A DNA stretch of 20,219 nucleotides, taken from a virus. The position numbers and the translations under genes are program-made. The notes beneath the pieces were generated by a model that ran no database searches, was not told the origin of the DNA, and saw only the letters and a list, made by a program, of their open reading frames with translations. Every line of letters begins with the position of its first letter. The first letter of the stretch is position 1. Shown here one piece after another: positions 1-17,031 of the stretch. The stretch is from positions 1-20,219 of the IMG/VR virus record IMGVR_UViG_3300017957_000102; one strand, written 5' to 3'.

Positions 1-2514
1 AGCAGCGATACTACGTTTAATAACAGGAGCAAATGCGCCAGCAGAATAGTTGCCTGCAAGTTCCATGCTGTTAAACATAAAGCGTGGGAACGGAACAACA
101 GCAGTCAAACCACTGCGTGTAATAAACGATGTAATCTGTCTAAACACAGGCACTTCAGGCTGCTTTGCATATGTAATGTCTAGTGCTTTGTCTGTAGCGT
201 CTGCTACCAAGTCATTAAATGACCGCTTACCTTTAGGTACAAGGTCAGAGGCATCATTCATAAGGTCAGGCAGTCTTCCATTATTTAATGCCTGTACTAA
301 ATCAATGCCGTATTCTCTTTGCACAAGGCGTTCTAGTTCACCTGTAAAAGCACCCCTGCGTATAAGAAACTCCTGCCACCTGTTTGGCAAGTTCAGGATG
401 TCAACACCTGCTTCAGCTTTATTTAATACAGCATCTACACCTCTACCAAACTTTGTTTTTGCCTTACCTGCGCCTGTGCTTTTACGAATTTCGTTAATAG
501 TATTAAACATCATGTCAAATTGTGATGCATATTTGTCGTTGCTTAACACAAAATCAGTTATCTGTTTAGAGTCACGCATCTTTGTAGGGTCAAACATATA
601 ACGCATATGTCTAAAGCTACCTGTCCAGTTACCTTCACCCGGTTTAAATGTTTTAAGACCAGCAGCTAGACTGGTTGCTGGTCCTTTTGCGTTACTAAAA
701 TTATATAACGCAGTATCCATCATGTTACCTAAACCTTCAAGAGGCGCACGTGCAACAGCAGATGACAGGTTTCTACCTGCAGTAGCTAACTGCGATACCA
801 AGAGTCCTCGCCTAATGTTTTCCACACGCACGATAAACTTCTGAAACCCATTCATGCTATCGAAGAATGCTTTTTCTTCTGCTGCACGTTTGGCACTGGC
901 AGGTTTTACACGTTGAGAGATTTGAGAGAACTTGTTTAGTACTCTACCTGCTTCAGAAGCAGAGCCTAGCATCATTGTAGCATACTCTTCAAAGTTAATA
1001 TCATACTTGTTGAGCAAGTCTAACAATTCATCTGCTGGTATGATGTCCTTGTTAACAGAAAACTCAAACAGATTATCCACCAAACCCTTTGACGGGTCAT
1101 AAAGTTCTGGTTTTCTGTCCAATAACTCTTTAGCAATAGCTGTAAAAGAGTCTAGGTTCTCTGCTTTAATAATAGGTATAGTGAGTTCGCCATCATCGTT
1201 GATAAGAAAATCAGGAATGTCATCTTCTGGCGCATCTTTAAGACCAAATGCTTCCAACGCTCTATCGCTACGCTTACTAGAGCCATACTCAGCTAACTTT
1301 TTACGAGCAGCTTCTTTGGCTGCAGGATTGTCTAACTTAATTACACCATCATCTGTTATAGATATAAGTAAGTCCTTATCAATGATTACGGGATTACCTG
1401 CAGCATCATATGCATCTTTACTACGTGCGCCAATTGCCTGTTCAAAACTCATAATGAGTTGCTCACGTATTGCTTGATTTTCGTCAGCTACTTTTTTAGC
1501 TTCGCCACGCTTTATTTTTTTCTGTTGTGCTGTGTTAGCTGTGGCTAATCCAAGGTTAAACCTTTTATTATTAGCTATTTTCTTAGCCTCTGCTGTAGCA
1601 GCTTTTGCTGCATTTTTATACTGCCTACCTAATGTGGACACAGAACCCAATACAGGAATAGCCTCTAGCATGGTAAAGAAATTTATCATTTCTCTACCCC
1701 ATTGTTCTGCTGCATTTTTAGGACTTTGTTTAGCACCTGCAGCTATATATTCATTAAAAAAATCATAGCTTGCTTCGTTGGTTTCTTTCCATGTTTCAAA
1801 GAATGACTGAGCAGCATCTACACTCGCAGCACCCGCTTGTTGCATAGACATGCCTAAAGAAATCATAGCATCAAATGCATCAGCACCACCGTAAGCTATA
1901 AAGTCTTTGAGTGGACCATCATCCATCTTAGGTATGACTAATGTTTCAATAGCTTTATCTCTACGAGCATTGTTTACAATTACATCTTCATCTAAGTCTA
2001 TTTCTGGCAACGCAAAGTCTAAACCCGTCCTGCCAATCATGGCTTCCCGTATTTCTGCTTGCTGTCTAGCCTCTTCTATTGCCGCCTGCTCCTCTTCATA
2101 AGAGAAATCAACAGCCATTGCAACTTCGTTCAACATTGCTTCTGTGCTATCAGCTTCGGCTACTGCTTTCTCATAACGAGACAGTGCTTCTGTATCAACA
2201 GGCTGTTCAGGCTCAGTAGGACGTAGCACTAAAACAACCTCGCCCTCATCATTAAACTGAGGAATCATTGGATCTTTTTCGGCACGGTCTTGTGGTGGGA
2301 CGTAAGTATCTACAGGTTCAAAAGAGTTGTTTATTAGCTGATTTAACTCATCGTCTGATTGAGGTTCTACTTCTTTTTCTTGCACTACAGGCACATTAGG
2401 AGTGACAACAAGATCAGGTTGAACATCATTATCAATCTGATTTTGTACTTCAAATTGTTGATTAATTAACGCCTCAAGTTCTGCGTCAGTCTGACTTTGT
2501 TGTTCTAAGGTCAT
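1..2514 (-). CDS. Large ejection (internal virion) protein, 3' end beyond window
   Basis: An open frame of 838 codons begins with ATG at 2514 and runs without a stop to base 1, so the C-terminus is missing. Its start overlaps the stop of the upstream gene as ATGA. The first 150 residues are acidic and low in complexity. Conserved-looking blocks follow: VENIRRGLLVSQLATAGRN near residues 565-582, LPNRWQEFLIRRGAF near 708-722, and VVPFPRFMFNSME near 806-818. I recall this trio (RRGLxVSQxATAxRN, NRxQEFxIRRxxF, PFPRFMxNS) from very large structural proteins of marine podoviruses. Size and position as the last gene of the ejection cluster suggest the counterpart of the large T7 core protein gp16, forming the DNA-translocation channel. 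No lytic transglycosylase motif is visible in this part. The family match is from memory; the ejection role is inferred. Confidence 0.75.
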   Translation of the reverse strand, partial: MTLEQQSQTDAELEALINQQFEVQNQIDNDVQPDLVVTPNVPVVQEKEVEPQSDDELNQLINNSFEPVDTYVPPQDRAEKDPMIPQFNDEGEVVLVLRPTEPEQPVDTEALSRYEKAVAEADSTEAMLNEVAMAVDFSYEEEQAAIEEARQQAEIREAMIGRTGLDFALPEIDLDEDVIVNNARRDKAIETLVIPKMDDGPLKDFIAYGGADAFDAMISLGMSMQQAGAASVDAAQSFFETWKETNEASYDFFNEYIAAGAKQSPKNAAEQWGREMINFFTMLEAIPVLGSVSTLGRQYKNAAKAATAEAKKIANNKRFNLGLATANTAQQKKIKRGEAKKVADENQAIREQLIMSFEQAIGARSKDAYDAAGNPVIIDKDLLISITDDGVIKLDNPAAKEAARKKLAEYGSSKRSDRALEAFGLKDAPEDDIPDFLINDDGELTIPIIKAENLDSFTAIAKELLDRKPELYDPSKGLVDNLFEFSVNKDIIPADELLDLLNKYDINFEEYATMMLGSASEAGRVLNKFSQISQRVKPASAKRAAEEKAFFDSMNGFQKFIVRVENIRRGLLVSQLATAGRNLSSAVARAPLEGLGNMMDTALYNFSNAKGPATSLAAGLKTFKPGEGNWTGSFRHMRYMFDPTKMRDSKQITDFVLSNDKYASQFDMMFNTINEIRKSTGAGKAKTKFGRGVDAVLNKAEAGVDILNLPNRWQEFLIRRGAFTGELERLVQREYGIDLVQALNNGRLPDLMNDASDLVPKGKRSFNDLVADATDKALDITYAKQPEVPVFRQITSFITRSGLTAVVPFPRFMFNSMELAGNYSAGAFAPVIKRSIAA

Positions 2515-3797
2515 ATAAATTTATATCCTGTCCACAATAATTTTACGGTACCTACTTGTCCATCTGTATTTGTTGTTGTAAATTTAACAACAGCATTTTT
2601 ACTAAACTCACCAGCGTTAGCACGTTCCTTTAAACTGCTCATAGTAACATTTTGTTGATTAGTTAAGTCTACAAATTTTGTATAACCAGACCCAACTAAA
2701 TTGGGGTCTTCGTTACGCAATTTGTTATAATTTACCTCTGCTTTATTTTTAAAAGCTAAAATTTGCCTATCGACAGAGGCTATAGCGGCTCTTGCGTTTT
2801 GATGCAACAAACCAAACTTTGAAGCATCTGCATATCCCGTATCTATAATTTCTTGATACGCTGATTTTTCTAAGTCAAATGCTTCGCCTTCGTTACCAGC
2901 TATGACAGTAGTAATTTTACCATCAATACCTTTTACTGCAAATTTAGACATTGCAGTATCCGCATAGCTTTTGATAATAGTGGGTATGCTTGTCACCAAA
3001 TCTTTATCAAACTGACCTGCAGAGTCAGTGGCACCGCCTTCTCTTAATTGAAACTCTAGCCATTGTGTGTGGGCTTCTTTACGTTTTTTCGTTAAGTCAT
3101 CAATTAACTGTTGATTAGGATTAGGCTTATCTTGTTCTGCCATTATCCGTTCAGTTAACTCAACGTGCAATGCGGTATATGTTGTATTTCTTTTCTTTTT
3201 GTTGGCATCGCTTATTTTAGCCTGACCTTCAAGACCAGCTAACAAACCTTTTCTATCAACCGTTGCTTGACCAATATTAAAGGATTGTCTAGTTTGTGCA
3301 GTAATAGGAACCTGCTGATTAATCCGTTCAGATAAATCTACCCCCTTTAAAAAGCCTGTACCTACGACATCACCTGCACCTAACGGTTGCATAGACGTAC
3401 CTGCAGGACGCATACTAGATATTAACTCTGGAAGAGTTGCCGAATCTGTCCCCTGAGAAAATTTAACAAGTGTACTAACATCAATACCTGCATCTGCACT
3501 TTCAGTAAATGCTTTGTATGCACGTTCTGCACCAGCTAAATTACCACCATAATCTTTAACAATCCTAACGGCATCTGTATAGGTAGCGTTTGGGCCTAGA
3601 GTAGATTGGATACCTTCAACGTATGTTGTCATCGCTTGATCAAACTCTTCTTCTTTTGCTTTTTGGGCTTCTCGTTTTAATCTACGCTCTTTAGCCACGT
3701 TTTCTGCACGTTCTTCTGTACGCCGCATATCATCTTGCAAACGCTGGTCTAAACTTTTAGCAGCACCGCCAATTACATCAGCCAATCTAATCTTCAT
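2511..3797 (-). CDS. Putative internal virion (ejection) protein, 428 aa
   Basis: No specific family is recognised. Residues about 15-60 are highly charged (RLQDDMRRTEERAENVAKERR and on) and look like a long helix or coiled coil. The rest is mixed helical, with no signal peptide or membrane span. The start ATG shares one base with the stop of the 167-aa gene upstream (TAATG), and GGAG lies just before it, so the two genes are probably translationally coupled. Its own stop overlaps the next ATG. It sits between a coiled-coil virion protein and the very large ejection protein, which matches the place of middle-sized core proteins such as T7 gp15. Role is inferred from position only. Confidence 0.6.
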   Translation of the reverse strand: MKIRLADVIGGAAKSLDQRLQDDMRRTEERAENVAKERRLKREAQKAKEEEFDQAMTTYVEGIQSTLGPNATYTDAVRIVKDYGGNLAGAERAYKAFTESADAGIDVSTLVKFSQGTDSATLPELISSMRPAGTSMQPLGAGDVVGTGFLKGVDLSERINQQVPITAQTRQSFNIGQATVDRKGLLAGLEGQAKISDANKKKRNTTYTALHVELTERIMAEQDKPNPNQQLIDDLTKKRKEAHTQWLEFQLREGGATDSAGQFDKDLVTSIPTIIKSYADTAMSKFAVKGIDGKITTVIAGNEGEAFDLEKSAYQEIIDTGYADASKFGLLHQNARAAIASVDRQILAFKNKAEVNYNKLRNEDPNLVGSGYTKFVDLTNQQNVTMSSLKERANAGEFSKNAVVKFTTTNTDGQVGTVKLLWTGYKFI

Positions 3798-4300
3798 TAT
3801 TGTCTCCGTGCCATTAATCCAGTTGAAGGCTCTTCAGTTTCTTGTTCTTCTTCGTCTGGTGTCTCATCATTTTTCTTAACACTGTCCATATTCTCTAGTT
3901 TTCGCAGTGTTTTTTCTACGAGGCTGCGTCTTACCCTGTCTTTATCTGGATTGTCTTCTAAACCAGATTCATATTCTACACCTGCACTGTCTCCTATAAG
4001 CATCATCATTTCTGCTAACAAAGGCATTACAAGAATACCCACATCAATTGTATGTACACCTTCCATAACTGCACCAAGCTGCAGTGTATTTGCTACATCA
4101 GCTACAGGAACACCCATTTCCATTACATCAATTAATTGGTCAGTAAAATCATCGTTAGACATGCGTTCAAGGTAATACTCAATAGCATCATCTACTGATG
4201 CAATTTGTGGTGGAGATTGCCAAGGTCTAGCACCAAACTCTGCAGTTAAAGACATACCGGGTATTGGAGCATCAAATGAAAAATCAGTACTACGAGCCAT
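3797..4300 (-). CDS. Conserved-looking hypothetical virion-cluster protein, 167 aa
   Basis: Function not recognised. The N-terminus carries a GARPWQSPPQ motif (about residues 23-32). A helical central region follows, with a hydrophobic stretch around IDVGILVMPLLAEMMMLIG (residues 85-103). The C-terminal 40 residues are very acidic (DEEEQETEEPS). The hydrophobic stretch could be amphipathic or buried; a true membrane span is uncertain. The gene overlaps the 72-aa gene upstream by 11 bases, and its ATG is preceded by AAGGAAC, a fair ribosome binding site. It lies inside the overlapping ejection cluster, so it is probably a minor virion component or an assembly factor for the ejection proteins. 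Confidence 0.6.
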   Translation of the reverse strand: MARSTDFSFDAPIPGMSLTAEFGARPWQSPPQIASVDDAIEYYLERMSNDDFTDQLIDVMEMGVPVADVANTLQLGAVMEGVHTIDVGILVMPLLAEMMMLIGDSAGVEYESGLEDNPDKDRVRRSLVEKTLRKLENMDSVKKNDETPDEEEQETEEPSTGLMARRQ

Positions 4301-4508
4301 TTATTTCGTTCCTTTTATCACGCAATATTTTAAAGTGTGAAGCAACACGCATTACTGGACTATCCATATCATTTTCTTTTTGTTCTTCTTTACGTCTAGG
4401 CGCAAGAAGCCCACTTAAAGTTTTCTTTGGTTCTTTAACGTGAGACATTTCTTCTACTTGCTTTGATATTGTTTTGTACGTGGATAGTACAGGATTATAC
4501 GTACGCAT
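4290..4508 (-). CDS. Small basic hypothetical protein, 72 aa
   Basis: Function not recognised. The protein is short and strongly charged (KEPKKT, RRKEEQKEND, LRDKRNE) with no membrane span. The start at 4508 lies 14 bases inside the end of the 703-aa gene and has AAGGGTG a few bases upstream. An internal ATG at 4448 with AGAAGAA before it is a possible alternative start, giving a 52-aa product and removing the overlap. The start at 4508 fits the tight overlaps seen along this cluster. Likely a minor virion or assembly protein co-translated with its neighbours. Confidence 0.5.
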   Translation of the reverse strand: MRTYNPVLSTYKTISKQVEEMSHVKEPKKTLSGLLAPRRKEEQKENDMDSPVMRVASHFKILRDKRNEINGS

Positions 4509-6606
4509 TTTGTTTCACCCTTTTTCTTTCTACAATAATATCCATTGCTTTTTTGGTAAGCCATTTAAGTGCAGGCTTGTTGCTAATAAACTTAGCATAT
4601 GCTTGACCGTGTTTCTTATATAATTTTTGTAACCACTCTGGTGCGTCATATCGCATCCATGTACGGAATACAAACCAACGTGGATCTCCTTTACCATATA
4701 CTTCACGAGCCACCCAACAAAACAGATTACCAAAACCGTATTGAATACCAGCACCCAAGACCGTACCAATCAAACCACCAACAGCCTGACCATTTGAAGT
4801 GCTTGATCTTTCTTCTTCAACTTCTTTACGTGTCTTAGCATCTAACTCTGCTATAGCCATATCAACAATTCTGTCTTGAGAATTTTCTGCAGCAGTTACC
4901 GCCCACTCCATCGTATCAGCATAAAAGTTCCATAGGTTATCATAAGCCTGTTTACCTATGTCTAACGTAGCTGCAGCGTTTAATTCATTGACTCTGTTAA
5001 GTGCGGCAGTATCTGCAGTGGCTAATTGTCTACGCCATTGCACATTTGATTGAGCAATTACAAGCTGGTTTTGTGCATTAAACTGGTCACGTTGGTTATT
5101 TAACTCTGCGTTAAATCTGTTAATTGTATTAGCTTGCCCTGCATTAAACTGCGATTGTGCGTTTTGCTGAGTAGCATTAAACTGTGCTACCTGACTGGAT
5201 AGATTAGCAAAGAATTGATCGACTTGATTTTGGCTAGATGCATTAAATTGACGTGCTGCATTTTCTGCAGCTTGGTCAGTAAACATTGCTTGCACACGTT
5301 GCTGCGCACGAAACAATTCAGTTTGTTGTCTATTAGATAAGTTAGCCATATCAATTTGCAAGAATGATTGCGCATTTTGTACTGCAGCTTGTTGTCTATT
5401 GGATAGGTTAGCTGTGTCTAGCTGTGCTAATGCAGATGCTTCAGCCATAACCAATGCTTGTTTATTTGATAGGTTCTGTAGGTTCACTGTGTTAGCGGCA
5501 CGAGAGTTTTCTAACTGTACCTGCTGTTCTGCTGTAAAGTTTTGATTAGCAATATCACTAATCTTACTAGCATTCATTACTTTCATTTGAAACGCTTGGT
5601 CAAACTCTTGACCCATAAACCTAGCACGTTGTTCCGCTGCAAGCATTGCAGACTGCTGCCTGTTAGATAAGTTCTGTGCTTCAAAAGCAGCAACAGTTTT
5701 TGCATCTGCCATTGCAATAGGCATTGCAGACTCCATAGCGGCCTGTACAACGGCTTGACCAGCAAGAGATGATGCACCTAGCCCACGTGCCGCCATAGCT
5801 GATGTAGCGGCTCTCATGGCCCCTGCAGCCCATGCTGGTGTAGCACCGCCTTGGAACTGTTGCATTAATCCATCAAGTTGTGTAGCCACCATAGTTTGAG
5901 CAGATGGATTAGCCGTAGCTGCTGCAGCTTGTGTTTGTGCAGCTACTTGTGCGGCTTTAGTAGCATCCACACCTGTACCACTAATCAGTTCACCTTGTTG
6001 TATCTGACGTTGTACAGGATTGTTAATAAGTATTGCGTTACCCTGTGCTGCTTGTAAATTACCTACAGACGATTGTGTTTGCTGTGCGGCAGTGACTTGC
6101 AGTCTTGGGTCATTTGGGTCTGACTGTGCTGCTTGTGTAGCAGATACAGCAGCATCTACGTCAGCAGCAGCAGTGTCTGCTTGCACTAAATTAGCTGTAG
6201 TTTGTCCGGGTTGTTGCGCTTGGGCTGTCAATGCCATAGCTGTAGGTGTTTGCACTTGTCCTGTTACTGTTCCAGTTCCTGCAGCAATATCTTGAGATGT
6301 ATCGTAAGGAATAAACTGTGCCTTTGTAATTTGATCTTCTGTTAGTTTAGGATCATACATTTGCTGTACACTAAAGTCAGTTACACCCGACATTTGAGAT
6401 TCAGATTGTGGTGTACCACCTGTCTGCATTTTAACCACACCACCTTTAGCCATTTGCATAGCTTTGTTTGTGTAGTCATTCATCTTCTGCTGTCGCATAG
6501 GGTCTTGTGCAAGGAAGTCTTGGAACCCCTGCATATTACCTTGATAGCCCATAGACCGTGCTATCTTCTCCATGCCACTAGGTTTAAATGCTTTAAACAT
6601 TGCCAT
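4495..6606 (-). CDS. Ejection/internal virion protein with hendecad-repeat coiled coil, 703 aa
   Basis: The N-terminus (MFKAFKPSGMEKIARSMGY, then a QMAKGG motif near residue 55) resembles the start of virion proteins I recall from marine podoviruses. Residues 60-310 are low-complexity and rich in Ala, Gln and Thr. Residues 312-553 form about 22 unbroken 11-residue repeats, many starting with Asn (NLSNRQQ and QFNA motifs). A Gly-rich hydrophobic segment at about 607-628 (VGGLIGTVLGAGIQYGFG) could insert in a membrane. The C-terminus is a compact domain beginning FCWVAREVYG (629-638). ATG at 6606 has AGTAGGGAA upstream and follows the previous stop by one base. As the first long gene of the ejection cluster it is a candidate for a T7 gp14-like or core protein. 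The helical repeats and Gly-rich segment fit a periplasm-spanning or membrane-inserting ejection role, which is inferred. Confidence 0.7.
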   Translation of the reverse strand: MAMFKAFKPSGMEKIARSMGYQGNMQGFQDFLAQDPMRQQKMNDYTNKAMQMAKGGVVKMQTGGTPQSESQMSGVTDFSVQQMYDPKLTEDQITKAQFIPYDTSQDIAAGTGTVTGQVQTPTAMALTAQAQQPGQTTANLVQADTAAADVDAAVSATQAAQSDPNDPRLQVTAAQQTQSSVGNLQAAQGNAILINNPVQRQIQQGELISGTGVDATKAAQVAAQTQAAAATANPSAQTMVATQLDGLMQQFQGGATPAWAAGAMRAATSAMAARGLGASSLAGQAVVQAAMESAMPIAMADAKTVAAFEAQNLSNRQQSAMLAAEQRARFMGQEFDQAFQMKVMNASKISDIANQNFTAEQQVQLENSRAANTVNLQNLSNKQALVMAEASALAQLDTANLSNRQQAAVQNAQSFLQIDMANLSNRQQTELFRAQQRVQAMFTDQAAENAARQFNASSQNQVDQFFANLSSQVAQFNATQQNAQSQFNAGQANTINRFNAELNNQRDQFNAQNQLVIAQSNVQWRRQLATADTAALNRVNELNAAATLDIGKQAYDNLWNFYADTMEWAVTAAENSQDRIVDMAIAELDAKTRKEVEEERSSTSNGQAVGGLIGTVLGAGIQYGFGNLFCWVAREVYGKGDPRWFVFRTWMRYDAPEWLQKLYKKHGQAYAKFISNKPALKWLTKKAMDIIVERKRVKQNAYV
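4948..5673 (-). repeat. Tandem 11-residue (hendecad) protein repeat, about 22 units
   Basis: Residues 312-553 of the 703-aa protein divide exactly into 11-residue units with no phase shift. Asn occupies unit position 1 at residues 312, 345, 356, 367, 378, 400, 411, 422, 455, 477, 488, 499, 510, 521 and 543. Two sub-types are visible: NLSNxQQ units spaced 22 or 66 residues apart, and QFNA-type units each 11 apart (residues 453-509). Such hendecads normally form right-handed or straight coiled coils or long amphipathic helices. Confidence 0.85.
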
Positions 6607-7422: not shown

Positions 7423-10400
7423 CTATCGTGCATTGGCATATTTAAATGGGGTTTCGGCAAAGGCGAGGTAGATAAAATTATGTCCAGCGGCGGCGTTTGT
7501 TTCGCCATAGGAGGCGTTTCTAATCTTAAAGCCGTTGCTTAAAAAATCTACTTTCAAAACAGTGCTTGCGCTTTCTGCACCACCTGTATTTGGATATAAA
7601 AAATCGTTCATTTCATTAAACGTGCTTCTATCTGTGTCCAGTATTAACCAATTTACTGACCCATTGTTTGTGTTTTTTATCATAACCCATGCTGGCCTAA
7701 ACCCTGTGTAGGTAAAAGGGCCATCTGCACTATTGTTGGCGACATATAAACCAGTCTTGCTGAAGCCATCCACGCTGTGGAAGCAGTAGGCTATGAAATC
7801 GCCGCCGCTAATATTCGTTCTGTTTGAATAGCCAGTTGTGAAAACTGTGCTAGTTGGGTTTGCACCCCATTCATCTGCCCACGTTGTTGCTGGCGCACCT
7901 GTGCTATCTAAACTATAAACATTACTTGTTGTAAAGTTGCCAATATCAGTGCTTCCAACCGACCAGCTTTGTGCATCGTTTAGGCGTTTGCATATGATTA
8001 GTTCAGGTGCCGAAGCAAGGCCGTGACCTATTGTTGATGTTTGCCCAGTGGTAGTATTTACACCTGAATAACTGACCACGCTAAACCCTGCATCCTGACT
8101 AGCTGATACAACAGACTGTATAGAACCTTTAAAATTTGATGACCCGTGTGTTTCTGTAGTGTTAGCTTGTCCACCCATACCACTATGTGTTGAACAATAG
8201 TAGTACAAAGTTGGCGCACCTGCAGCTACAGTTATAACTGTTTTTGCGCCAGCAGAACCCGGTGTTCCCGAAGTTGTTACGCCTACTGTATACTCTGAGC
8301 CACTGTTGTGTGTTCCATCTGATGTAGTAGAAAAGCGAAGTGGATGTGTGGCATTACTACTGTCTGATTGGTCAAATGTATATGTGCCACCTTCTTGTAA
8401 ACTTAATGTTACTGCACTTGTTCCAAAATCATCAAACCTGAATTTGTTACCACTGTCGGATACAACTTTTACTGTATATGTTTGTGTAGGAGAAGGACCA
8501 CCAGCTTTCCAAGTCCAAGCTACATAACTATTACCACTTGTATTAGTATCTCCTAATGCTCCAATTGTAAAACCATTGTATTCAAGTTTTGTACCATTAT
8601 TTGTATTTGTACTTTCTATGGCGTTTGAATTTGATATTAACTGCTTATAATCACCTCTAACAGAATCTACAAGATAATGGTCTGTTGAAGCAGTGGTTCT
8701 ATTTTTAATCCACACTAAATCCGGCGCAACTATACCTTCTACTGGAATGTTGTCATCTACTATTGCTAATGCATCAGTAGGTGGCGTGTAGTAAAAACTA
8801 CCATAGCCATTAGCATCTGAAGCTGCTGCTGACCCTGATGTTTTACTTCCAGCAAAAGTATCATCAGCACCAAAGTTAAATGTACTAATTCCAGTTCCTG
8901 CACCGGGGGACATAGTAAATGGTCTATAAGATCCGGGTGCAATAGTAAATGGACTACCTAAAGATACACCATTCTTATATATAGTCATTACTTCATTTTT
9001 TATTTGAAAACCAATTATATCTCCAGTTGTTGCAGTAGTACCTATCCAAGCATCAGATGTTCCATAAGGATTTTCTGATCTATAACCATTTTGAGGATAC
9101 CAAAAATATCCATTAATGCTTCCAGCACCTGTACAGCTTTGGTTTGCATCAACTATACCCATCCAAGCAGTAGATAAATTAGTTAGGTCTACTTCCCAAT
9201 ACCAGTTACCAGAAGAGTTAAAAGCTAAAGTAGTAGTATGGTGTCCATTAGCACCATCATGAGTATATCTTAAATTACCTTCTGAAAGACGTGAGCCACT
9301 ACTATAAGAGTTTTTAGGGTCAAATGTATTAAAGTTCTGTGTAGGGCTATCTGTTTTTACATCGTGTGAATCAATTGTGCTACCTATAATACCAAAATTT
9401 CTTCCCGATCCTGATTGGTCATCACCAATATTTGTTTGCGCTGTTGTACCATCCGCTGTGGTAGCCGTTCCTGTTCCTTCATATGTTAATCTAAAACCTG
9501 TACTACCATATGTTCCACTATACGCTTTAGGTATCCAATACCCGTTAGACCCTACTTGTCCAAATTCTTCTGGACCATATGCTTGTCCATCTACAAAAAT
9601 AGTATCTGCTAAGTATGCATCTAGCCCATACCCTGTTGCAGAAGGATGCACACCAAGATTATGTTCAACAGCCGCATTTACTGCTTGATCTCCAGATAAA
9701 GATAATCTGTTGTCAGTAGCAAACGATGTTATTTCTGTACCGTCTACGTATAAACGCATTTTTTCAGCATCAGTTGCATTGTCTGTATCTAACACCCATA
9801 CAATATGATACCAATCACTGACACTTTGAAAAGATTTATTAGACTTTAACCACAATGTTGATTGACCAGTAACTGTTAAAGCATCCGTTGCTCTCCAAAC
9901 TAACATCATAAAAGTGCTATCGGCAGCACCTGTATTTGTACCAAATATATAATGATCATTTCCACTTGCTAAAAGATCAGTTCGTTTCATCCAAGTGCTA
10001 AATGTCCACTTTCGTCTATTGCCACCTGAACCAAATGTTCTAGCTAATTCGTGTTCACCTGCTCTATCAAATAGAAGACCATTAGCAATAGTAGTAACAT
10101 CTATAGGATGTTGTGCGCCACCTGAACCAATGTGTTGTGTTGCACCGTTGCCTGTGTAAAGTATAGTTTCAAAGTAATCGTCAGCTTGTTCACTTTTGTT
10201 GGGGCCAATAATTGAATCTGGAAGGTTGGCTGTGCATAAGGCTAATGCACCTGTTGGCGGTTGCCATTTGAAATCACCATAGCCATTTGCATCTGAATAT
10301 CCACCAGATGTTGTTTCGCCAGCGAATGTGCCATCTTGCCCAAAGTTAAAAAATCCCACTTCACTTGAAGTGCCGCCGCCCATACCGACAAATGGTATCC

Positions 10401-12297
10401 AATCAATATCTGTTCCAGACGGTATAGTTACTGCACTACCTAATGAGCCGCCATTTACTGTCCAAGCAATAGTTCCAGCATCTGCATCAAATACAACTCC
10501 ACATCCTTCATTTTCAGCCCAGCCTGTTATAGAATCGTATGCTGTTCTAGTTCCTTCAACATTCTTTTGACCATTTCTGGACGAAAGAGTTACACCAGTA
10601 TCCCAACCACCCCTGCTTCCATCTATATCAACAGTCGGTACATTGATGCCTACAGCGTGCAATTCGTTATCAGTTGAGTAGTTAAAAGATTTTGACCAAT
10701 GCTCCCAATACCACTTACCAGACTTAGGCAAAAGAATGTTGGCAACAACACCTCTATTATTTGTTGATGTTGTATGCCGCAAATTTCCTTCGCTAAAAGT
10801 CATATTAGCGTGTGGGAAAACTGAATTTATTGTTGGAAAATTATTAGTCGGGCTATCCGGCACGACATCATTTTCATCTAAATTATATGCAGTCCAGTGA
10901 TTTCCATTACCAGACGCATCATCATAAAAATTGCTAGTCGTAAATGGGCTATCATAACTTAAAGTTGGAGAACCACTTGTAGTACCATCATTATTTTCGG
11001 TGCTGATGTCATCGCCAAGTGTAGCATTTACAGCAGTTAATAATTTAGTGCCAGTAACTGCTGTTAAAGTTGTTGTTGGAACAGTAATGTTATTATCGTC
11101 ATCAGCATAAACAGTGTTGCCAATAACATATCTAACATTGCTTAGTGACCCACTCATACCTTGCCCATGTGGATCGCCTAAAATAGTATCGTTTGAACTA
11201 TAGGCTTTGTTAAAATTTGTTGCCTTTCCATCTGATAAAGTCCAGCTAGAAGATACATTTGAAATAGACGTTAACCTTGTACCATCAATATATGCTCTTA
11301 ATGTTGTGCCATCTCTTTGAAATACCATATGATGCCAAGTGCCGTTAGATAAAGTAACGTTACCAGCTACAGCCCAAGCTAATGATTGCCCATTACCTGA
11401 GTAAAAATAAATATTTCTAGTTGAACTTCTAAAATCATAACCAATTAAGTGATAACTTGTTGCATAATCACCCATAAAATTACCGTAGTTAGCACCTACA
11501 TCTTGTGTCTTGAAAAAGAACTCAATAGTAAAATCATCTGATGCACCAATGACAAAAGAGGCGGCATCCGAATAAGTAACTGCAGCAGTACGGGCTGTTC
11601 CAAAGTTTATACTATTTCCACCTGTAACATCTTGTGTAAATGGAAGATACCAACCGTTGTTGCCGTAAGTAATTCCCGATGTTTCTTTAGGAACCCACAC
11701 TCCATCTATTGTTTCAGCAAAAGTGCTAATAGGTACAATTGAACCGTCTATAAAATGTGCTTCGGCAAGATATAAGTCTAAATATGTGGATGCATTTGAT
11801 TTACGGACAATTCTTTGTAATTGACCATTAACACCAAGTTTACCTAAATCTGTTGATTGTGAGGCTTCATTGTCTAATTCACCATTAACATAAATTTTAA
11901 CTTTAGACTCTCCGTCTGCATCATAAGTTACATATAGATGATACCAAGCTGATGGGTCACGCCTAACGGCGTTACCAGTAACTGCTGTTGTACCATTACG
12001 AGCAAATGTAAAGTTATTTAGGCTTTGATATCCAACGCCATCAATGTAACTAGAGCCAGCAGACAAGATATACCCATCACCTATCCCAGAACCCCACGTT
12101 TTAACCCACGTTGAAAAGGTCATCTTGCTACTATCCGTAGCAGCACTGCTTGGTGTAAATTCTAGGTATGAAGTACTACCATCAAATCTCAAGGATTGAT
12201 TAATAGCATAACTACCTAAAAGCGCACCACCAGCAAGTGCGCCACCGGGATCACCAGCACCGCCTAGTCCAGCACCGTTAGCTTGAAGAATGCTCAT
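7423..12297 (-). CDS. Giant multi-domain fibre/adhesin with LamG-like, SPRY-like and cupredoxin-like modules, 1624 aa
   Basis: Apparent modules in order are: a Gly/Ala-rich N-terminus (1-30); LamG-like folds at about 34-190, 226-395 and 738-905 (SLRFDGSTSYLEF, FTIEFFFKTQ, KWTFSTWMKR, with W(Y/H)H and xYVDG/xYIDG strands); SPRY-like modules at about 500-655 and 1003-1145 (GNLRHTT...GKWYWEHW and GNLRYTH...GNWYWEV); a PDLVWIKNR block at 1190-1267; a cupredoxin-like domain at 1268-1386; and a C-terminal block from APELIICKR (1431) to the final FKYANAR. I recall the PDLVWIK/FKYANAR blocks from marine phage structural proteins (DUF7483-like, unverified). LamG and SPRY folds bind glycans or proteins, so host-surface adhesion is likely. 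The gene starts one base after the preceding fibre gene stops. Its ribosome binding site is weak (GGGG far upstream), suggesting coupling. Confidence 0.75.
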   Translation of the reverse strand: MSILQANGAGLGGAGDPGGALAGGALLGSYAINQSLRFDGSTSYLEFTPSSAATDSSKMTFSTWVKTWGSGIGDGYILSAGSSYIDGVGYQSLNNFTFARNGTTAVTGNAVRRDPSAWYHLYVTYDADGESKVKIYVNGELDNEASQSTDLGKLGVNGQLQRIVRKSNASTYLDLYLAEAHFIDGSIVPISTFAETIDGVWVPKETSGITYGNNGWYLPFTQDVTGGNSINFGTARTAAVTYSDAASFVIGASDDFTIEFFFKTQDVGANYGNFMGDYATSYHLIGYDFRSSTRNIYFYSGNGQSLAWAVAGNVTLSNGTWHHMVFQRDGTTLRAYIDGTRLTSISNVSSSWTLSDGKATNFNKAYSSNDTILGDPHGQGMSGSLSNVRYVIGNTVYADDDNNITVPTTTLTAVTGTKLLTAVNATLGDDISTENNDGTTSGSPTLSYDSPFTTSNFYDDASGNGNHWTAYNLDENDVVPDSPTNNFPTINSVFPHANMTFSEGNLRHTTSTNNRGVVANILLPKSGKWYWEHWSKSFNYSTDNELHAVGINVPTVDIDGSRGGWDTGVTLSSRNGQKNVEGTRTAYDSITGWAENEGCGVVFDADAGTIAWTVNGGSLGSAVTIPSGTDIDWIPFVGMGGGTSSEVGFFNFGQDGTFAGETTSGGYSDANGYGDFKWQPPTGALALCTANLPDSIIGPNKSEQADDYFETILYTGNGATQHIGSGGAQHPIDVTTIANGLLFDRAGEHELARTFGSGGNRRKWTFSTWMKRTDLLASGNDHYIFGTNTGAADSTFMMLVWRATDALTVTGQSTLWLKSNKSFQSVSDWYHIVWVLDTDNATDAEKMRLYVDGTEITSFATDNRLSLSGDQAVNAAVEHNLGVHPSATGYGLDAYLADTIFVDGQAYGPEEFGQVGSNGYWIPKAYSGTYGSTGFRLTYEGTGTATTADGTTAQTNIGDDQSGSGRNFGIIGSTIDSHDVKTDSPTQNFNTFDPKNSYSSGSRLSEGNLRYTHDGANGHHTTTLAFNSSGNWYWEVDLTNLSTAWMGIVDANQSCTGAGSINGYFWYPQNGYRSENPYGTSDAWIGTTATTGDIIGFQIKNEVMTIYKNGVSLGSPFTIAPGSYRPFTMSPGAGTGISTFNFGADDTFAGSKTSGSAAASDANGYGSFYYTPPTDALAIVDDNIPVEGIVAPDLVWIKNRTTASTDHYLVDSVRGDYKQLISNSNAIESTNTNNGTKLEYNGFTIGALGDTNTSGNSYVAWTWKAGGPSPTQTYTVKVVSDSGNKFRFDDFGTSAVTLSLQEGGTYTFDQSDSSNATHPLRFSTTSDGTHNSGSEYTVGVTTSGTPGSAGAKTVITVAAGAPTLYYYCSTHSGMGGQANTTETHGSSNFKGSIQSVVSASQDAGFSVVSYSGVNTTTGQTSTIGHGLASAPELIICKRLNDAQSWSVGSTDIGNFTTSNVYSLDSTGAPATTWADEWGANPTSTVFTTGYSNRTNISGGDFIAYCFHSVDGFSKTGLYVANNSADGPFTYTGFRPAWVMIKNTNNGSVNWLILDTDRSTFNEMNDFLYPNTGGAESASTVLKVDFLSNGFKIRNASYGETNAAAGHNFIYLAFAETPFKYANAR
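8140..8496 (-). other. Cupredoxin-like domain with complete type-1 copper ligand set (within the 1624-aa fibre)
   Basis: Residues 1268-1386 read as a beta-sandwich: YTVKVVS, then GGTYTFDQSDSSNATHPLRFS, then TVITVAAGAPTLYYYCSTHSGMGG. His1318 and the Cys1368-x2-His1371-x2-Met1374 cluster match the four type-1 copper ligands. The C-x2-H-x2-M spacing is as in amicyanin, and the 50-residue His-to-Cys distance is in the plastocyanin range. The domain is placed directly after a WTWKAGG motif and before SVVSYSGV, as if inserted into the block shared by related fibres. Confidence 0.65.
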
Positions 12298-12298
12298 C

Positions 12299-14845
12299 TT
12301 ATGTTAATGCCCCTGATACAGAAACCAAAACTCTATTGTCACCTGTTGCAGCTTTTACAAAGTATGCTAGGTGATATACGCCAGCAGTAGCTAATGCTGT
12401 TAAGGCATCTGCGTTAATAGCTACCATAGCGTTAGCACTGATTGTGCCACCACCAGTAGTTAAGAAGATATTGCCTGATTGACCAGCTACAGTATTGCTA
12501 AAGGTAAGTTCATCATCACCTGTTGTGGTAGCTTGGAAATTGGTGTTGTCAGTCAAATCAAAAGTGATGACATTGGCACTTGGTGAGTCGGTTGTTATAG
12601 CGTCAGTTCCATCTGAACTTAAAGCACGTCCTGTTACCGTTACACCTGCAGCATCAATCTCTACTACAGTAGACGAAGTATCTTGTATTTTGATACTACC
12701 TTCACTCGTAGCATTATCAATAATACTGTCTGTACCATTGTGATAAATTTCTAAATCATTACCTGTACCAAACCGCAAGCGGTCATCTGTTGCTGCACCA
12801 CTGTCATCAAACTCAATGTTAAAGCCATCAGCAGTAAGTGTACCACCCAAAGCAGGTGATGTGTCACTTGATATACTTGTTCCCGGTAATGCTTCAAGTT
12901 GTATTTTACCACCAGTATTATCATATGTCAACACATAATTATCTTGACCTACGCCTACACTTTGATCTGCGTCAAAAGTAAACACACCTACGTTAACATC
13001 ACCTGTTCCGTTAGGCGTAATAGTAACATTACCATTGAGGTCTGTGCTTGATATTGTGTTTCCATCAATTTGAATATTATCTACACGTAAATCGGTTACA
13101 GCACTATTTGTACCAATGGTTACACCATCAATAGCACCACTATCAATGTCAACCTTGCTAATATCAACTTCACCTGTACCATCTGGTGTCAGTGTAATGT
13201 TGCCGTTTGTATCTGTTGATGTGATAGCATTACCGTTGATGTTGATGTTATCTATCTGTGCTTCAGTAACCGGGCTGTTTGTACCTAATGTGATACCATC
13301 AATAGCACCGCTGTCAATGTCGACTTTGCTAATATCAACTTCACCAGTTCCGTTTGGTGTAAGGGCAATATTGCCGTTAGCATCCGTGCTTGTAATAGCG
13401 TTACCATTAATGTTAATGTTATCAACATCAAGGTCTGTGTTAATTACAACTGTACCAGTTCCATTTGGTGACAGGTTAATATCACCATTGGTGTCTGTAC
13501 TACTAACCGTGTTACCATTTACATTAACATTACCAACGGTAGCACCAGAAGCATTTAACTTCAAGCGTTCTGCAGCAGCAGCACCAGATGACATGGTTTT
13601 AAATATGAGGTCAAATTCTTCAGAACCCGGAGTTAATCCAGTAGTTACAGATTCAACTACACCGCCTGTTTCAAGCGTTCCTGAAGCAGTTTCTGTAGAG
13701 AACTCAATACCAGTACCAATGCCCACAGCAGGTGTACCACTGCTTTGTGCTTGCAGTTTAAGAACGTCAGTAACAGCATTGGTGGTAGAGTTTTCTACAT
13801 TAAGTGTAAGACCAGTATCTGCTACGTGGGTAAGTGTTACATCAGTAGGGGCTGCACCAAAATTAATTATAGCACCATCTGATGATAACGTAACATCATC
13901 ACCAACATCTAAGTCACCAGTAATATTAACATCTGTGCTAACATCAATCTGCCCAGTTACATTTATACCGTCTGCGTCCGTATCAAATTTCTTTACATTG
14001 TCATGGTATATTTCTACCGCACCATTAACGTCCATAGCAATAAACTGTTCAGTTCCTGTGTCACTACGCAAAGTAATGTTATCGCCCTGAACATATAATT
14101 CACCTGTGTTGTTTTCAATGTAGCTATTAGTAGCATCATGGTATATTTCTAAATCGGGTGCAACACTATTACCAAATGTAGCTTTTTCAGTATCGTCAAG
14201 ATGTATACCATCTAGTGCAAGACTACCTGTAATTGCAACACCCGTTGATGTTGTTTCAAATTTCTTGCTGTTATCATAATATAATTCTACTGCACCATTT
14301 ACATCTGCTGCAATATAAGTTTCTGTACCTGTGTCACTACGAAGTGTAATGCCATCACCTTGTACAAAAAGTTCGCCAGTATTATTTTCAATATAACTAT
14401 TTGTTCCATCGTGGTATAGCTGCAAATCATTGCCTGTACCAAACACACCTTTAGCACTATCCGCAAACTCCAGTGCATTATCGCTGGCATCAAATACTAC
14501 GTTATTAGCTGCGCCTGTAAGAGTAACATCGCCAGTAGTAGTCACATTTACAAGATTAGCTGTACCAGCAAGGTGAAGGTCTTTATACTCAAGAGAAGAT
14601 GTACCAAGGTCTAGTGTGTTAGTCGTCTTAGGACGCATTTCTGTAGACGACACAACCACATCTTGCACAGGACCAACCACCGTAATTGGCCCACCTTCTG
14701 CAGCAGTACCATCGTGCGTATGTCCTGTGGTAGCATTAAAGGCTGCTTCAATGGCATCATATTCGCCATCAAAGTCAGCAGCGTTAATTACGTTACCGTC
14801 AGCAATATTATTAGCTGTATCGTTTCTAGTGTATCCTGTTCCCAT
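12299..14845 (-). CDS. Repeat-built tail fibre protein, 848 aa
   Basis: The N-terminus (MGTGYTRNDTANNIADGNVI, then GHTHDG and ITVVGPVQD) is a conserved-looking anchor that I recall from marine phage fibres and that probably attaches to the nozzle or tail hub. The shaft is repetitive. Two 91-residue repeats start with DLQLYHDGTNSYI (140) and DLEIYHDATNSYI (231), with a degenerate copy near 697. A Gly/Asn/Thr-rich ladder occupies 439-620, with units such as NININGNAITSTDANGN. Predicted structure is all beta, consistent with a trimeric beta-helical fibre. The C-terminal YHLAYFVKAATGDNRVLVSV shows no visible catalytic or autoproteolytic chaperone motif. ATG at 14845 has AAGAAGG upstream. Host recognition is likely but inferred. 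Confidence 0.8.
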   Translation of the reverse strand: MGTGYTRNDTANNIADGNVINAADFDGEYDAIEAAFNATTGHTHDGTAAEGGPITVVGPVQDVVVSSTEMRPKTTNTLDLGTSSLEYKDLHLAGTANLVNVTTTGDVTLTGAANNVVFDASDNALEFADSAKGVFGTGNDLQLYHDGTNSYIENNTGELFVQGDGITLRSDTGTETYIAADVNGAVELYYDNSKKFETTSTGVAITGSLALDGIHLDDTEKATFGNSVAPDLEIYHDATNSYIENNTGELYVQGDNITLRSDTGTEQFIAMDVNGAVEIYHDNVKKFDTDADGINVTGQIDVSTDVNITGDLDVGDDVTLSSDGAIINFGAAPTDVTLTHVADTGLTLNVENSTTNAVTDVLKLQAQSSGTPAVGIGTGIEFSTETASGTLETGGVVESVTTGLTPGSEEFDLIFKTMSSGAAAAERLKLNASGATVGNVNVNGNTVSSTDTNGDINLSPNGTGTVVINTDLDVDNININGNAITSTDANGNIALTPNGTGEVDISKVDIDSGAIDGITLGTNSPVTEAQIDNININGNAITSTDTNGNITLTPDGTGEVDISKVDIDSGAIDGVTIGTNSAVTDLRVDNIQIDGNTISSTDLNGNVTITPNGTGDVNVGVFTFDADQSVGVGQDNYVLTYDNTGGKIQLEALPGTSISSDTSPALGGTLTADGFNIEFDDSGAATDDRLRFGTGNDLEIYHNGTDSIIDNATSEGSIKIQDTSSTVVEIDAAGVTVTGRALSSDGTDAITTDSPSANVITFDLTDNTNFQATTTGDDELTFSNTVAGQSGNIFLTTGGGTISANAMVAINADALTALATAGVYHLAYFVKAATGDNRVLVSVSGALT
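12989..13531 (-). repeat. 57-residue (171-base) tandem repeat ladder in the fibre
   Basis: Units begin at residues 439 (NVNVNG), 476 (NININGNAIT), 533 (NININGNAIT) and 590 (NIQIDGNTIS). Spacings are 37, 57 and 57 residues. Each carries SSTDxNGx or TSTDxNGN followed by xPxGTGxV. The two full copies also share VDISKVDIDSGAIDG and are highly similar in DNA, 171 bases apart. Confidence 0.85.
13952..14431 (-). repeat. 91-residue (273-base) direct repeat in the fibre shaft
   Basis: Residues 139-229 and 230-298 repeat the same unit: D-L-x-(L/I)-Y-H-D, then NSYIENNTGEL, a VQGD motif, ITLRSDTGTE, DVNGAVE and a KKF motif. The period is exactly 91 residues. A third, diverged copy (DLEIYHNGTDSIIDN) lies near residue 697. 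Confidence 0.85.
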
Positions 14846-14850
14846 AGTTT

Positions 14851-17031
14851 TTACCTTCTTGAGTTAGTGGCATACTCTACCGTTAATGCGTCAAGGGAAA
14901 ACGGCGGTGCCTCTGTAGCAGAATCAAACAAGAATGAAACTGCAAATCCTGAACCAACAACTTGACTTTCAAATAGTTTAACTAGCTTGGCTCCATATGA
15001 TGTTACACCAAATGTGCCTTGTCCGAAGAAACCAACAGTACCTTGTGTGTTTTGAATGTTAATAGGTGCTGGTTGTATTATGCCAGATTCGTCAAAATCT
15101 AGCTTTAGACTTAAATCAAATGCCACACTACCTTGCGGGTCTGTGTACAAAAATATCTTGTAAAAAGTTTTTCGTACACGTGGATCTTCAATTGGAATAA
15201 ATGGCGTAGCAAAAGTAATTGTAATTGCTGTACCATCAAAATCACTTCCCGACTCCATTTGATACAAGTAGCCATCATTATTAGCAAAGACCACGACTTC
15301 TGTATTTAAGTGGTAGTTACTGTCTGCTACATATGCTCGTATGCCTCTTGTTTCCGCATACTGCATATTTGCACCACCCTGCTCTGCAAACTGCGTAGCA
15401 ATAATACCTTGGGCATTCTCTTGTGTAATATTGTTGTTGTATCCTAATATTCTATACTGTGATTTTTCTCTGATAACACAGCTTGAAAAATTTGTGTTTG
15501 CCGAAATAAATGTAGTTAAGTTATCCTGTATAGCCTTAGATACAACGCCTAATCCAAAGTCGCCAATTCTATCTGTTGCACTCAACAGTCGCAGACCATC
15601 AGGTGCCAAGAACATAATGTCACCACCGACTTCTTGAATGGTGTCACTTTCAATACAGCCAATGTCGTTTGTTACTGGTTGTAATGTAAAGTCTGCAATA
15701 GTGTTACCAACTAATCTTTGTATAGATACTTCAGTAAAAATAATTAGCTGGTCACGAAACACTTCTAATCCAGTAATGGGTGAACCTATATTAATTGCAC
15801 CTGCGCCGTTGGCTACTGAAAAGTCATTATCTGTATACGGTGCAGTAAAATTAAGGTTAGTTCCTTTACCAAAGAACAAAGCATTTTTAAAGTTACTTAC
15901 AAAAGATGCGCCTTTTACATCTGCCGGAGCGTCATTTAATACTGTAAATGTGCTATCATCATACGTGGCTGGTGCATTAGCACCGTCAACTATAGCAATC
16001 TTTTGTGTACCATCGTAGTTGTACTTAGCAAATCGTGTGCGTGAGGCACCTTCTCTACTGGTAGATATAAACGTAATAGCGGCATTGTCTGCTGGGCTAG
16101 AGTTAAGTGCCGGGTCTATGCTAATGGTCGCTGCACCCGATGTAACTGTAGGTGCTGCCGTAACTGTGTATACTAAGTCTACACCTGCAATAGTAAACTG
16201 GTCTTGTGCTTGCGGCGTAGCGTCTAAACCATCTACTGCTAAAGATGAACCTGTTTGACTTCCACCGTTTACTAATACCGTACCATAACTAGGAACATTT
16301 ATTTTAGTATAGCCAGTACCTGTAGTACTATATATGTCATCATTTTTAGCAACAATGGCTTGGCTTTCCCAACTTGCTACGCCTAGTGCTAAATAGTTTA
16401 GTACAGTAGATACAAACGTAACATCATCTTGATCTGACGGATTAACCACCATTGTCTGGTCAAGTGTTAATGTTGCTCTGTTTACGCTTGCAGAAAAACT
16501 TACACCACCTGTGGCTATACTATATCTAAAACTAAGAACAGCATTATCTGCTGGAGTAACTGCTAGTGTTGGTGTTATTGTAAGCGTAGATGCTGTACCG
16601 ACAAGAGCCGTTGCTGCGCTTACTGTATATACAGTTGTGTCACCTGCTATAGTAAATGTATCGCTTGCGGATGGTGCTACATCTAATCCATCTACGTCTA
16701 GTGATGTACCTGTCTGTGATCCACCTGCTACTGCACCACCTGTAAATGTTAACACATCACCTGCGACTGGTGTTTGATGTATATTCGCTATTGTAAGTGA
16801 TGTGCCGCTTTGACTACCGCCGTGTACCTTTGGTGCGCCATAAGGCGGAATTATATTACTGTCGTATTTGTCATAGCCCTCAATTCTACGATAGCCACCC
16901 TCAACAGACGGTTCAAAGTTACGTAGTATTCTTGCGCTACCCGGTGCGTTAATACCTTGCTGTAAAGGTGATAGATTACTAATAAGACCACCACGAAACT
17001 CAACGGCATAGGTTTTCCATGCGTCAGCCAT
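14851..17031 (-). CDS. Tail nozzle protein (T7 gp12 / tail tubular protein B-like), 726 aa
   Basis: The N-terminus has GGLISNLSPLQQG, a typical nozzle start, and RILRNFEPSVEGGYRRIEGY, where an ordered list of values begins. The core (about residues 330-620) has propeller-like strands: KNALFFGKGTNLNFTAPYTD, ITGLEVFRDQLIIFTEVSIQ, GGDIMFLAPDGLRLLS and DGYLYQMESGS. These are the features by which nozzle proteins are recognised. Residues 70-325 contain inserted repeats that look foreign to the propeller. It follows the adaptor gene by nine bases; AGGGG precedes the ATG at 17031. In the virion it should form the hexameric tube tip below the adaptor ring and hold the fibres. Confidence 0.8.
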   Translation of the reverse strand: MADAWKTYAVEFRGGLISNLSPLQQGINAPGSARILRNFEPSVEGGYRRIEGYDKYDSNIIPPYGAPKVHGGSQSGTSLTIANIHQTPVAGDVLTFTGGAVAGGSQTGTSLDVDGLDVAPSASDTFTIAGDTTVYTVSAATALVGTASTLTITPTLAVTPADNAVLSFRYSIATGGVSFSASVNRATLTLDQTMVVNPSDQDDVTFVSTVLNYLALGVASWESQAIVAKNDDIYSTTGTGYTKINVPSYGTVLVNGGSQTGSSLAVDGLDATPQAQDQFTIAGVDLVYTVTAAPTVTSGAATISIDPALNSSPADNAAITFISTSREGASRTRFAKYNYDGTQKIAIVDGANAPATYDDSTFTVLNDAPADVKGASFVSNFKNALFFGKGTNLNFTAPYTDNDFSVANGAGAINIGSPITGLEVFRDQLIIFTEVSIQRLVGNTIADFTLQPVTNDIGCIESDTIQEVGGDIMFLAPDGLRLLSATDRIGDFGLGVVSKAIQDNLTTFISANTNFSSCVIREKSQYRILGYNNNITQENAQGIIATQFAEQGGANMQYAETRGIRAYVADSNYHLNTEVVVFANNDGYLYQMESGSDFDGTAITITFATPFIPIEDPRVRKTFYKIFLYTDPQGSVAFDLSLKLDFDESGIIQPAPINIQNTQGTVGFFGQGTFGVTSYGAKLVKLFESQVVGSGFAVSFLFDSATEAPPFSLDALTVEYATNSRR
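16057..16824 (-). repeat. Inserted Ig-like/beta repeats in the nozzle, two full copies plus partials
   Basis: Full copies occupy residues 103-172 and 255-325 of the nozzle protein. Both read GGSQTG(T/S)SLxVDGLD, then FTIAG, VYTV, and PADNAxxxF at the end. A half copy at 70-101 keeps only GGSQSGTSL and GDVLTFTGG, and a more diverged one lies at about 174-209. Copies are about 70 residues each. Confidence 0.8.

Follow-up and report, generated by a model that had tools for sequence, protein, structure and literature searches.

The window analysed here (i.e., the whole stretch of DNA, 20,219 nucleotides in length) contains on its minus strand a gene for a repeat protein of 703 amino acids (4495..6606), which is the orthologue of HMO-2011 gp25 (phage1322_25) and is 62.6% identical to it over residues 1-702, such that the similarity extends over the full length. 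The virus behind this 20.2-kb window is an HMO-2011-type podovirus, and ocean viruses of this kind are very common. Orthologues are present in phages of Roseobacter, Pelagibacter, Rhizobium, Sinorhizobium, Vibrio, Aeromonas and Pseudoalteromonas (among them Roseobacter CRP, Pelagibacter HTVC, Sinorhizobium phiM6 and Vibrio CHOED), and several hundred virus contigs of environmental origin have one as well. Because bacterial genomes returned just two matching contigs, both of them metagenome-assembled, the family looks phage-specific at the sensitivity of that search. Nearly all records annotate the orthologue as a hypothetical protein (one calls it "huntingtin", and one leaves it unannotated); the 703-aa protein itself matched nothing in Pfam or NCBIfam and nothing significantly among the PHROGs, and searches of the PDB by sequence and by fold (Foldseek) gave no useful match.

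Around its repeat array, the protein is made up of several recognisable parts. A conserved domain precedes the array (residues about 240-300; 5709..5889, minus strand), with the pattern W..GA..R..AARGLGASSLAGQA...PIA and near-invariant columns at 257-302 in an alignment of 80 sequences, and it supplied the N-terminal anchor for our spacing measurements. The array is followed by a segment that is helical in the AlphaFold2 (AF2) secondary structure and has a conserved Trp (residues 554-602; 4801..4947, minus strand), in which W559 and R579 are invariant in the same alignment, and then by the Gly-rich hydrophobic segment that the initial annotation of this DNA had placed there and that is indeed present (residues about 609-630, GQAVGGLIGTVLGAGIQYGFGN; 4717..4782, minus strand); many relatives have a comparable Gly-rich tail. 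The C-terminus is a cap domain beginning CWVAREVYG (residues 631-703; 4498..4716, minus strand), modelled with a pLDDT near or above 90 for the greater part of 631-690. Within the phage collection this cap matched HMO-2011 only, and relatives either lack it or have an S74-type domain in its place. In certain other phages, genes soon past the repeat gene (L095 3741-4085, L093 4814-5785 and L084 8425-9684) encode Gly-rich or strongly cationic N-termini (e.g., MIGDIVRGAVSAAGAWAGNLIAGPKGAAVG and MSFLSKAWKGIKKVVKKSAFGIKKLAKKVI), and the repeat protein of those phages has no Gly-rich tail; judging by these sequences, fission of a membrane-active part into a separate gene is possible.

Three neighbouring genes follow on the minus strand. 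The first encodes 167 aa (3797..4300), with the pattern DAPIPGMSLT...PWQ.PP, and occurs in 26 phage records, from those groups that also have the repeat protein; the second encodes 428 aa (2511..3797) and occupies the position of P22 gp20 and T7 gp15, an assignment made from size and gene order; and the third (1..2514), which is cut by the window end after 838 aa, occupies by size and order the position of P22 gp16 and T7 gp16 and corresponds to a protein of 1128 aa in HMO-2011, to which it is 44.8% identical across 62% of the query. Order and size are the basis on which these three are taken as putative ejection genes. Nearly all relatives have, after the repeat gene, a gene of about 150-210 aa, one of about 365-930 aa and a large gene (800-1300 aa), with small inserted genes sometimes lying between the repeat gene and the next gene of the cassette, and these genes lie at the end of the structural module. 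This arrangement resembles the order of the P22 late region (26-14-7-20-16), and the cassette order resembles that of ejection operons with a gp14/15/16-like cluster (PMC8954989). In Pelagibacter phage HTVC115P (L084), a gene annotated as a toxin-activating lysine-acyltransferase (7994-8443) sits between the repeat gene and the remainder of the cassette.

Elsewhere in the window, a 1624-aa protein (7423-12297) with concanavalin-A-like lectin, SPRY and DUF7483 domains is probably, from its sequence, a receptor-binding or glycan-binding fibre. The adjacent fibre-like protein of 848 aa (12299-14845) contains a tandem duplication at 13107-13423, with a 171-bp (57-residue) unit and 81% matching. 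A further protein of 726 aa (14851-17031) matches phrog_5107, which is labelled amidase (E 4e-50); from its location behind the adaptor gene we would read it as tail tube B, so that the amidase label may mislead.

Register and length of the array

The initial annotation had described residues 312-553 as 22 units of 11 residues with Asn at the first position of 15, and both counts are confirmed: the array (window 5673-4948, minus strand, an exact match) keeps a single register, and none of 20,000 shuffles reached 15 Asn-first units. Array length was taken as the distance between the PIA motif (residue 296), which lies before the array, and Trp524, at the WRR site near its end, with profile HMMs of these anchors applied to 295 family proteins and the spacing measurable in 289. 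A register broken in relatives had been named as grounds for doubt, and all 289 measurable relatives are in register, their spacing differing from that of the window protein by an exact multiple of 11. Relative to this protein, the shorter or equal classes lie at -77, -66, -55, -44, -22, -11 and 0 residues and the longer ones at +11, +88, +110, +220, +308, +330, +418 and +440, and a second C-terminal anchor site gave the same multiples of 11. That all 15 length classes, which span about 15 to 62 hendecads, fall on multiples of 11 is not due to chance: the array lengthens and shortens by increments of exactly 11 or 22 residues.

As a rule for array length, the further suggestion that the array is long enough to span the cell envelope is not borne out. 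A straight array of 15-62 units would measure some 25 to 102 nm, the longest being far beyond any envelope or capsid interior, and the phages of Pelagibacter and of Roseobacter each fall into several length classes. Envelope width is therefore rejected as the cause of array length.

Two halves of the array

While the single register stands, the uniformity of the hendecads does not. The first half (residues 312-443; 5278..5673, minus strand) consists of six 22-residue units with the consensus N-L-S-N-x-Q-Q-..., as recognised from a motif in the odd hendecads, from length steps of 22 and from the AF2 model of a long relative (L237); the second half (residues 444-553; 4948..5277, minus strand) consists of ten QFNA-type hendecads with Phe at unit position 11, as recognised from length steps of 11, an 11/3 periodicity and AF2. 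With Asp444 as a third anchor dividing the two, the length changes on its N-terminal side are -88, -66, -44, 0, +66, +110, +220, +286, +330, +396 and +440, all multiples of 22. The exception is a change of -11 in two small groups, whose members, where examined, retain six whole 22-residue units and have only a shorter preceding linker. On the C-terminal side, the changes are multiples of 11 (-22, -11, 0, +22, +33, +44 and +132).

The motif in question resembles a helix cap, with a large hydrophobic residue followed by Ser, Thr, Asn or Asp at unit positions 2-3. In the first half of the window protein it is present in 6/6 odd and 0/6 even hendecads, and across 172 gapless relatives in 1011/1032 odd hendecads, 0/1032 even ones and 15/1376 units of the second half. 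Taken together, the steps of 22 and the restriction of the cap-like motif to odd hendecads indicate that the first half is built from 22-residue units.

The number of these units ranges from 2 to 26 per relative, with six in the window protein and two in the CHOED version, and the two halves vary independently: in one relative (L224) the hendecad half is longer by 132 residues (12 extra hendecads) and the 22-residue half is short. Relatives with 26 modules include L237, L232, L184 and L182-L186. In L237 and L184, the modules form a 110-residue (5 x 22) super-repeat, with lag-five identities of 0.50 and 0.44 against about 0.26 at neighbouring lags, a pattern which suggests growth by duplication of 330 bp.

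Composition and predicted structure

The array is rich in Ala, Gln and Leu and has few glycines, and its content of Asn, Gln and Arg is 37%, as opposed to 18% in the rest of the protein. Proline, which makes up 5.05% of residues outside the array, does not occur once among 37,279 residues of distinct array units, nor at the putative loop positions of 1236 distinct repeats. In the second half, bulky hydrophobic residues recur with a period of 11/3 (power 8.7; 0/5000 permutations as high), and the corresponding stripe in the first half is not significant (p = 0.087). An arrangement of the first half as a two-faced helix, giving a barrel with an amide-lined inside, fits by eye a helical wheel that suggests two hydrophobic faces, but fails an 11-point permutation test (p about 0.2) and is suggestive at most.

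The AF2 model of the window protein (a single chain, with 80 aligned sequences) is all-helical across the array and contains no strands, in line with the helical rather than non-helical or disordered structure that the initial annotation expected. It has an unbroken helix at 425-602 (pLDDT about 64-79 within 440-550), and a first half of low confidence, with breaks near 331-336, 356-362, 370-373 and 423-424 and with helix running across the unit boundaries at 378 and 400. In the model of L237, each 22-residue unit forms one helix of about 16 residues, with short loops between (pLDDT about 80-89), and the hendecad part forms one long helix. Predicted helices start just past the Ser/Thr/Asn/Asp position of the cap-like motif, and some breaks in the window protein fall at the same places as in L237. 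Single-chain models cannot show oligomers (pTM 0.27 and 0.49 for these two), and AF2 can be over-confident on repeats, with a known error in the direction of beta-solenoids (PMC11795689).

The direction of that error bears on the possibility that the array is a beta-solenoid of 22-residue coils with Asn/Gln ladders. Although the strictly conserved repeat length and an alternation of residues with a component near 2.2 residues would suit such a fold, AF2 placed no strand in a protein of the sort for which it tends to err toward strands, and an array rich in Ala, Gln and Leu, free of proline and poor in glycine is ill-suited to it; we regard a beta-solenoid as highly improbable. That the array is helical is well supported by the models, and a continuous helix across 444-602 is likely. 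The first half is predicted either way, as a hinged or as a continuous helix.

The initial annotation had suggested one unbroken helix of 242 residues, 22 hendecads and about 36 nm if fully extended, in an envelope-spanning bundle that lines or inserts the conduit for the DNA. Several features are in its favour, including the single register across both halves, the restriction of all length changes to multiples of 11, the absence of proline even from putative loop positions, the unbroken helix at 425-602 together with the low-confidence helix across 378 and 400, and the precedent of the phiX174 H tube. However, because a cap-like motif recurs every 22 residues and the AF2 models break there, the idea of one 36-nm helix lacks support as regards the first half: the motif is confined to the odd hendecads of that half, the breaks of L237 are predicted with good pLDDT, and a relative with 62 units would reach about 102 nm. 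We consider this model as a whole unlikely.

Another possibility is that the first half is a static alpha-solenoid, i.e., a permanent stack of helices of about 16 residues that acts as a scaffold or internal head spacer and has no extended state. The model of L237, the cap-like motif of each unit and the first-half steps of 22 all agree with this, but loop positions devoid of proline do not, and a permanent stack gives no reason why a repeat of 2 x 11 should be in phase with the hendecads that follow. Foldseek found no solved structure close to either AF2 model; among the nearest to the 22-residue repeats were designed, and hence artificial, helical-repeat proteins (best E 6e-3, TM below 0.3), and known alpha-solenoid families (TPR, HEAT, ARM and others) gave neither a Pfam match nor a close natural solenoid by Foldseek. 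Given also that AF2 may be over-confident on repeats (PMC11795689), we consider a static stack quite unlikely.

A further reading is a spring-loaded ejection rod. The first half could be pleated inside the head, as short helices hinged every 22 residues, and straighten after ejection into one hendecad helix, a distinctly unlikely reading in our estimation. The hinges would be the NLSN sites, which are never proline, and the straightened array would be in register with the second half. If true, such a rod would account jointly for the cap-like motif of every 22-residue unit, for an array free of proline and for length changes restricted to multiples of 11, and versions with 62 units could fit a capsid.

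A possible role in DNA delivery

Our preferred reading, to which we give a probability of roughly 0.45 with the whole of the mechanism proposed below included, is that the repeat protein belongs, as a long helical element, to the virion DNA-delivery (ejection) cassette. This role is argued from gene order, from a C-terminal domain that relatives share with annotated ejection proteins, and from the Gly-rich tail or, in some relatives without one, an adjacent small gene of Gly-rich or cationic type. Also in its favour are the predicted helix, the lack of proline and the Asn, Gln and Arg content of the array, which is similar to that of the phiX174 H tube. The shared domain, Peptidase_S74 (PHROG 6121, head and packaging), is at the C-terminus of the CRP-3 group and was not found by a Pfam search in the window protein; the CRP-3 version is matched by the C-terminal parts of two proteins, gp20 of Salmonella phage 7-11, an annotated DNA ejection protein, and gp11 of Pseudomonas phage AH02, whose next neighbour is a P22-like injection protein.

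The earlier assignment to an ejection cluster holds insofar as the gene fronts an apparent ejection-protein cassette, but apart from the S74 tail of CRP-3 we detected no profile similarity to known ejection proteins or to the family at the gp7 position. Alignments by hhalign to T7 gp14/15/16 and to P22 gp7/14/16/20/26 had probabilities below 3%; comparison with proteins of phages 7-11, AH02 and DB virus 2 gave no similarity beyond the S74 tail; and a profile of homologues of the S74 protein of Octadecabacter DB virus 2 showed none to the repeat family. We found no virion proteomics or experiment on the repeat protein in the literature.

S74 domains are found on tail fibres too, which raises the alternative of an external fibre, whisker or tail needle, in which a three-stranded coiled coil would stand outside the tail with the S74 or CWVAREVYG caps as trimerisation or tip domains. 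The S74 (chaperone of endosialidase) domain of the CRP-3 group, the variable length and exchangeable tips (as in tail needles) and a location past the tail genes, which also fits P22 gene 26, would be in keeping with it. Nevertheless, the window has separate fibre genes (7423-14845), annotated ejection proteins carry S74 as well, the protein has a Gly-rich hydrophobic tail, and needle-like rods of 50-100 nm would be predicted in micrographs. We assign this alternative a low probability.

As a delivery component, the protein would be carried in the head in several copies that exit through the tail ahead of the DNA. The sequence itself shows an array of two helical materials in one register, first the 22-residue modules and then hendecads with layers of Phe. 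With the Phe face as contact, its continuous helices may assemble into a stalk or tube, the Gly-rich tail may enter a host membrane, and the amide-rich, proline-free helices could build or support the passage. The 22-residue modules, which may be hinged at each unit N-terminal of about residue 425, might serve as a spacer that can fold, and their gain or loss would leave the rotational register intact. As a candidate for a DNA-delivery stalk or tube of HMO-2011-type phages, the protein lends itself to testing. Its array, free of proline and variable in length solely by quanta of 11 or 22 residues across a four-fold span of repeat number, is in effect a natural experiment, and a clean one, on long assemblies of helices.

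Comparison with known systems

With HMO-2011 gp25 and its orthologues, the 703-aa protein shares its gene family, gene order and 11-residue register, and it differs from them in repeat number, N-terminus and C-terminal cap. Beyond this family, the closest counterparts by position are P22 gp7 and T7 gp14, which likewise lie ahead of larger ejection-like genes (here with the 167-aa gene between). P22 gp7 has, like the repeat protein, a Gly-rich hydrophobic C-terminus, and gp7-position proteins of other phages have the S74 tail in common with the CRP-3 group; however, the repeat protein is about three times longer than gp7 and gp14, which lack a hendecad array. The P22 gp26 tail needle, whose gene occupies a neighbouring position akin to that of the repeat gene, is a helical coiled coil of variable length with an exchangeable tip. 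We know of no Gly-rich membrane-like tail on this needle, and comparison of gp26 with the repeat family produced no meaningful profile alignment.

The best functional parallel is the tube formed by the phiX174 DNA pilot protein H, which is ejected, contains hendecads and has a lumen in which 18 of 23 residues are N, Q or R (PMC7354561). Hendecad helices with a high content of Asn, Gln and Arg are common to the H tube (PMC7354561) and the array, but phiX174 is an unrelated virus and H has only three hendecads followed by heptads, whereas the array, known here from single-chain models, has no heptads. The resemblance is one of working principle and not of membership, and we view the repeat protein, with a mechanism that we infer, as a new variant among the long helical proteins of podovirus late cassettes.
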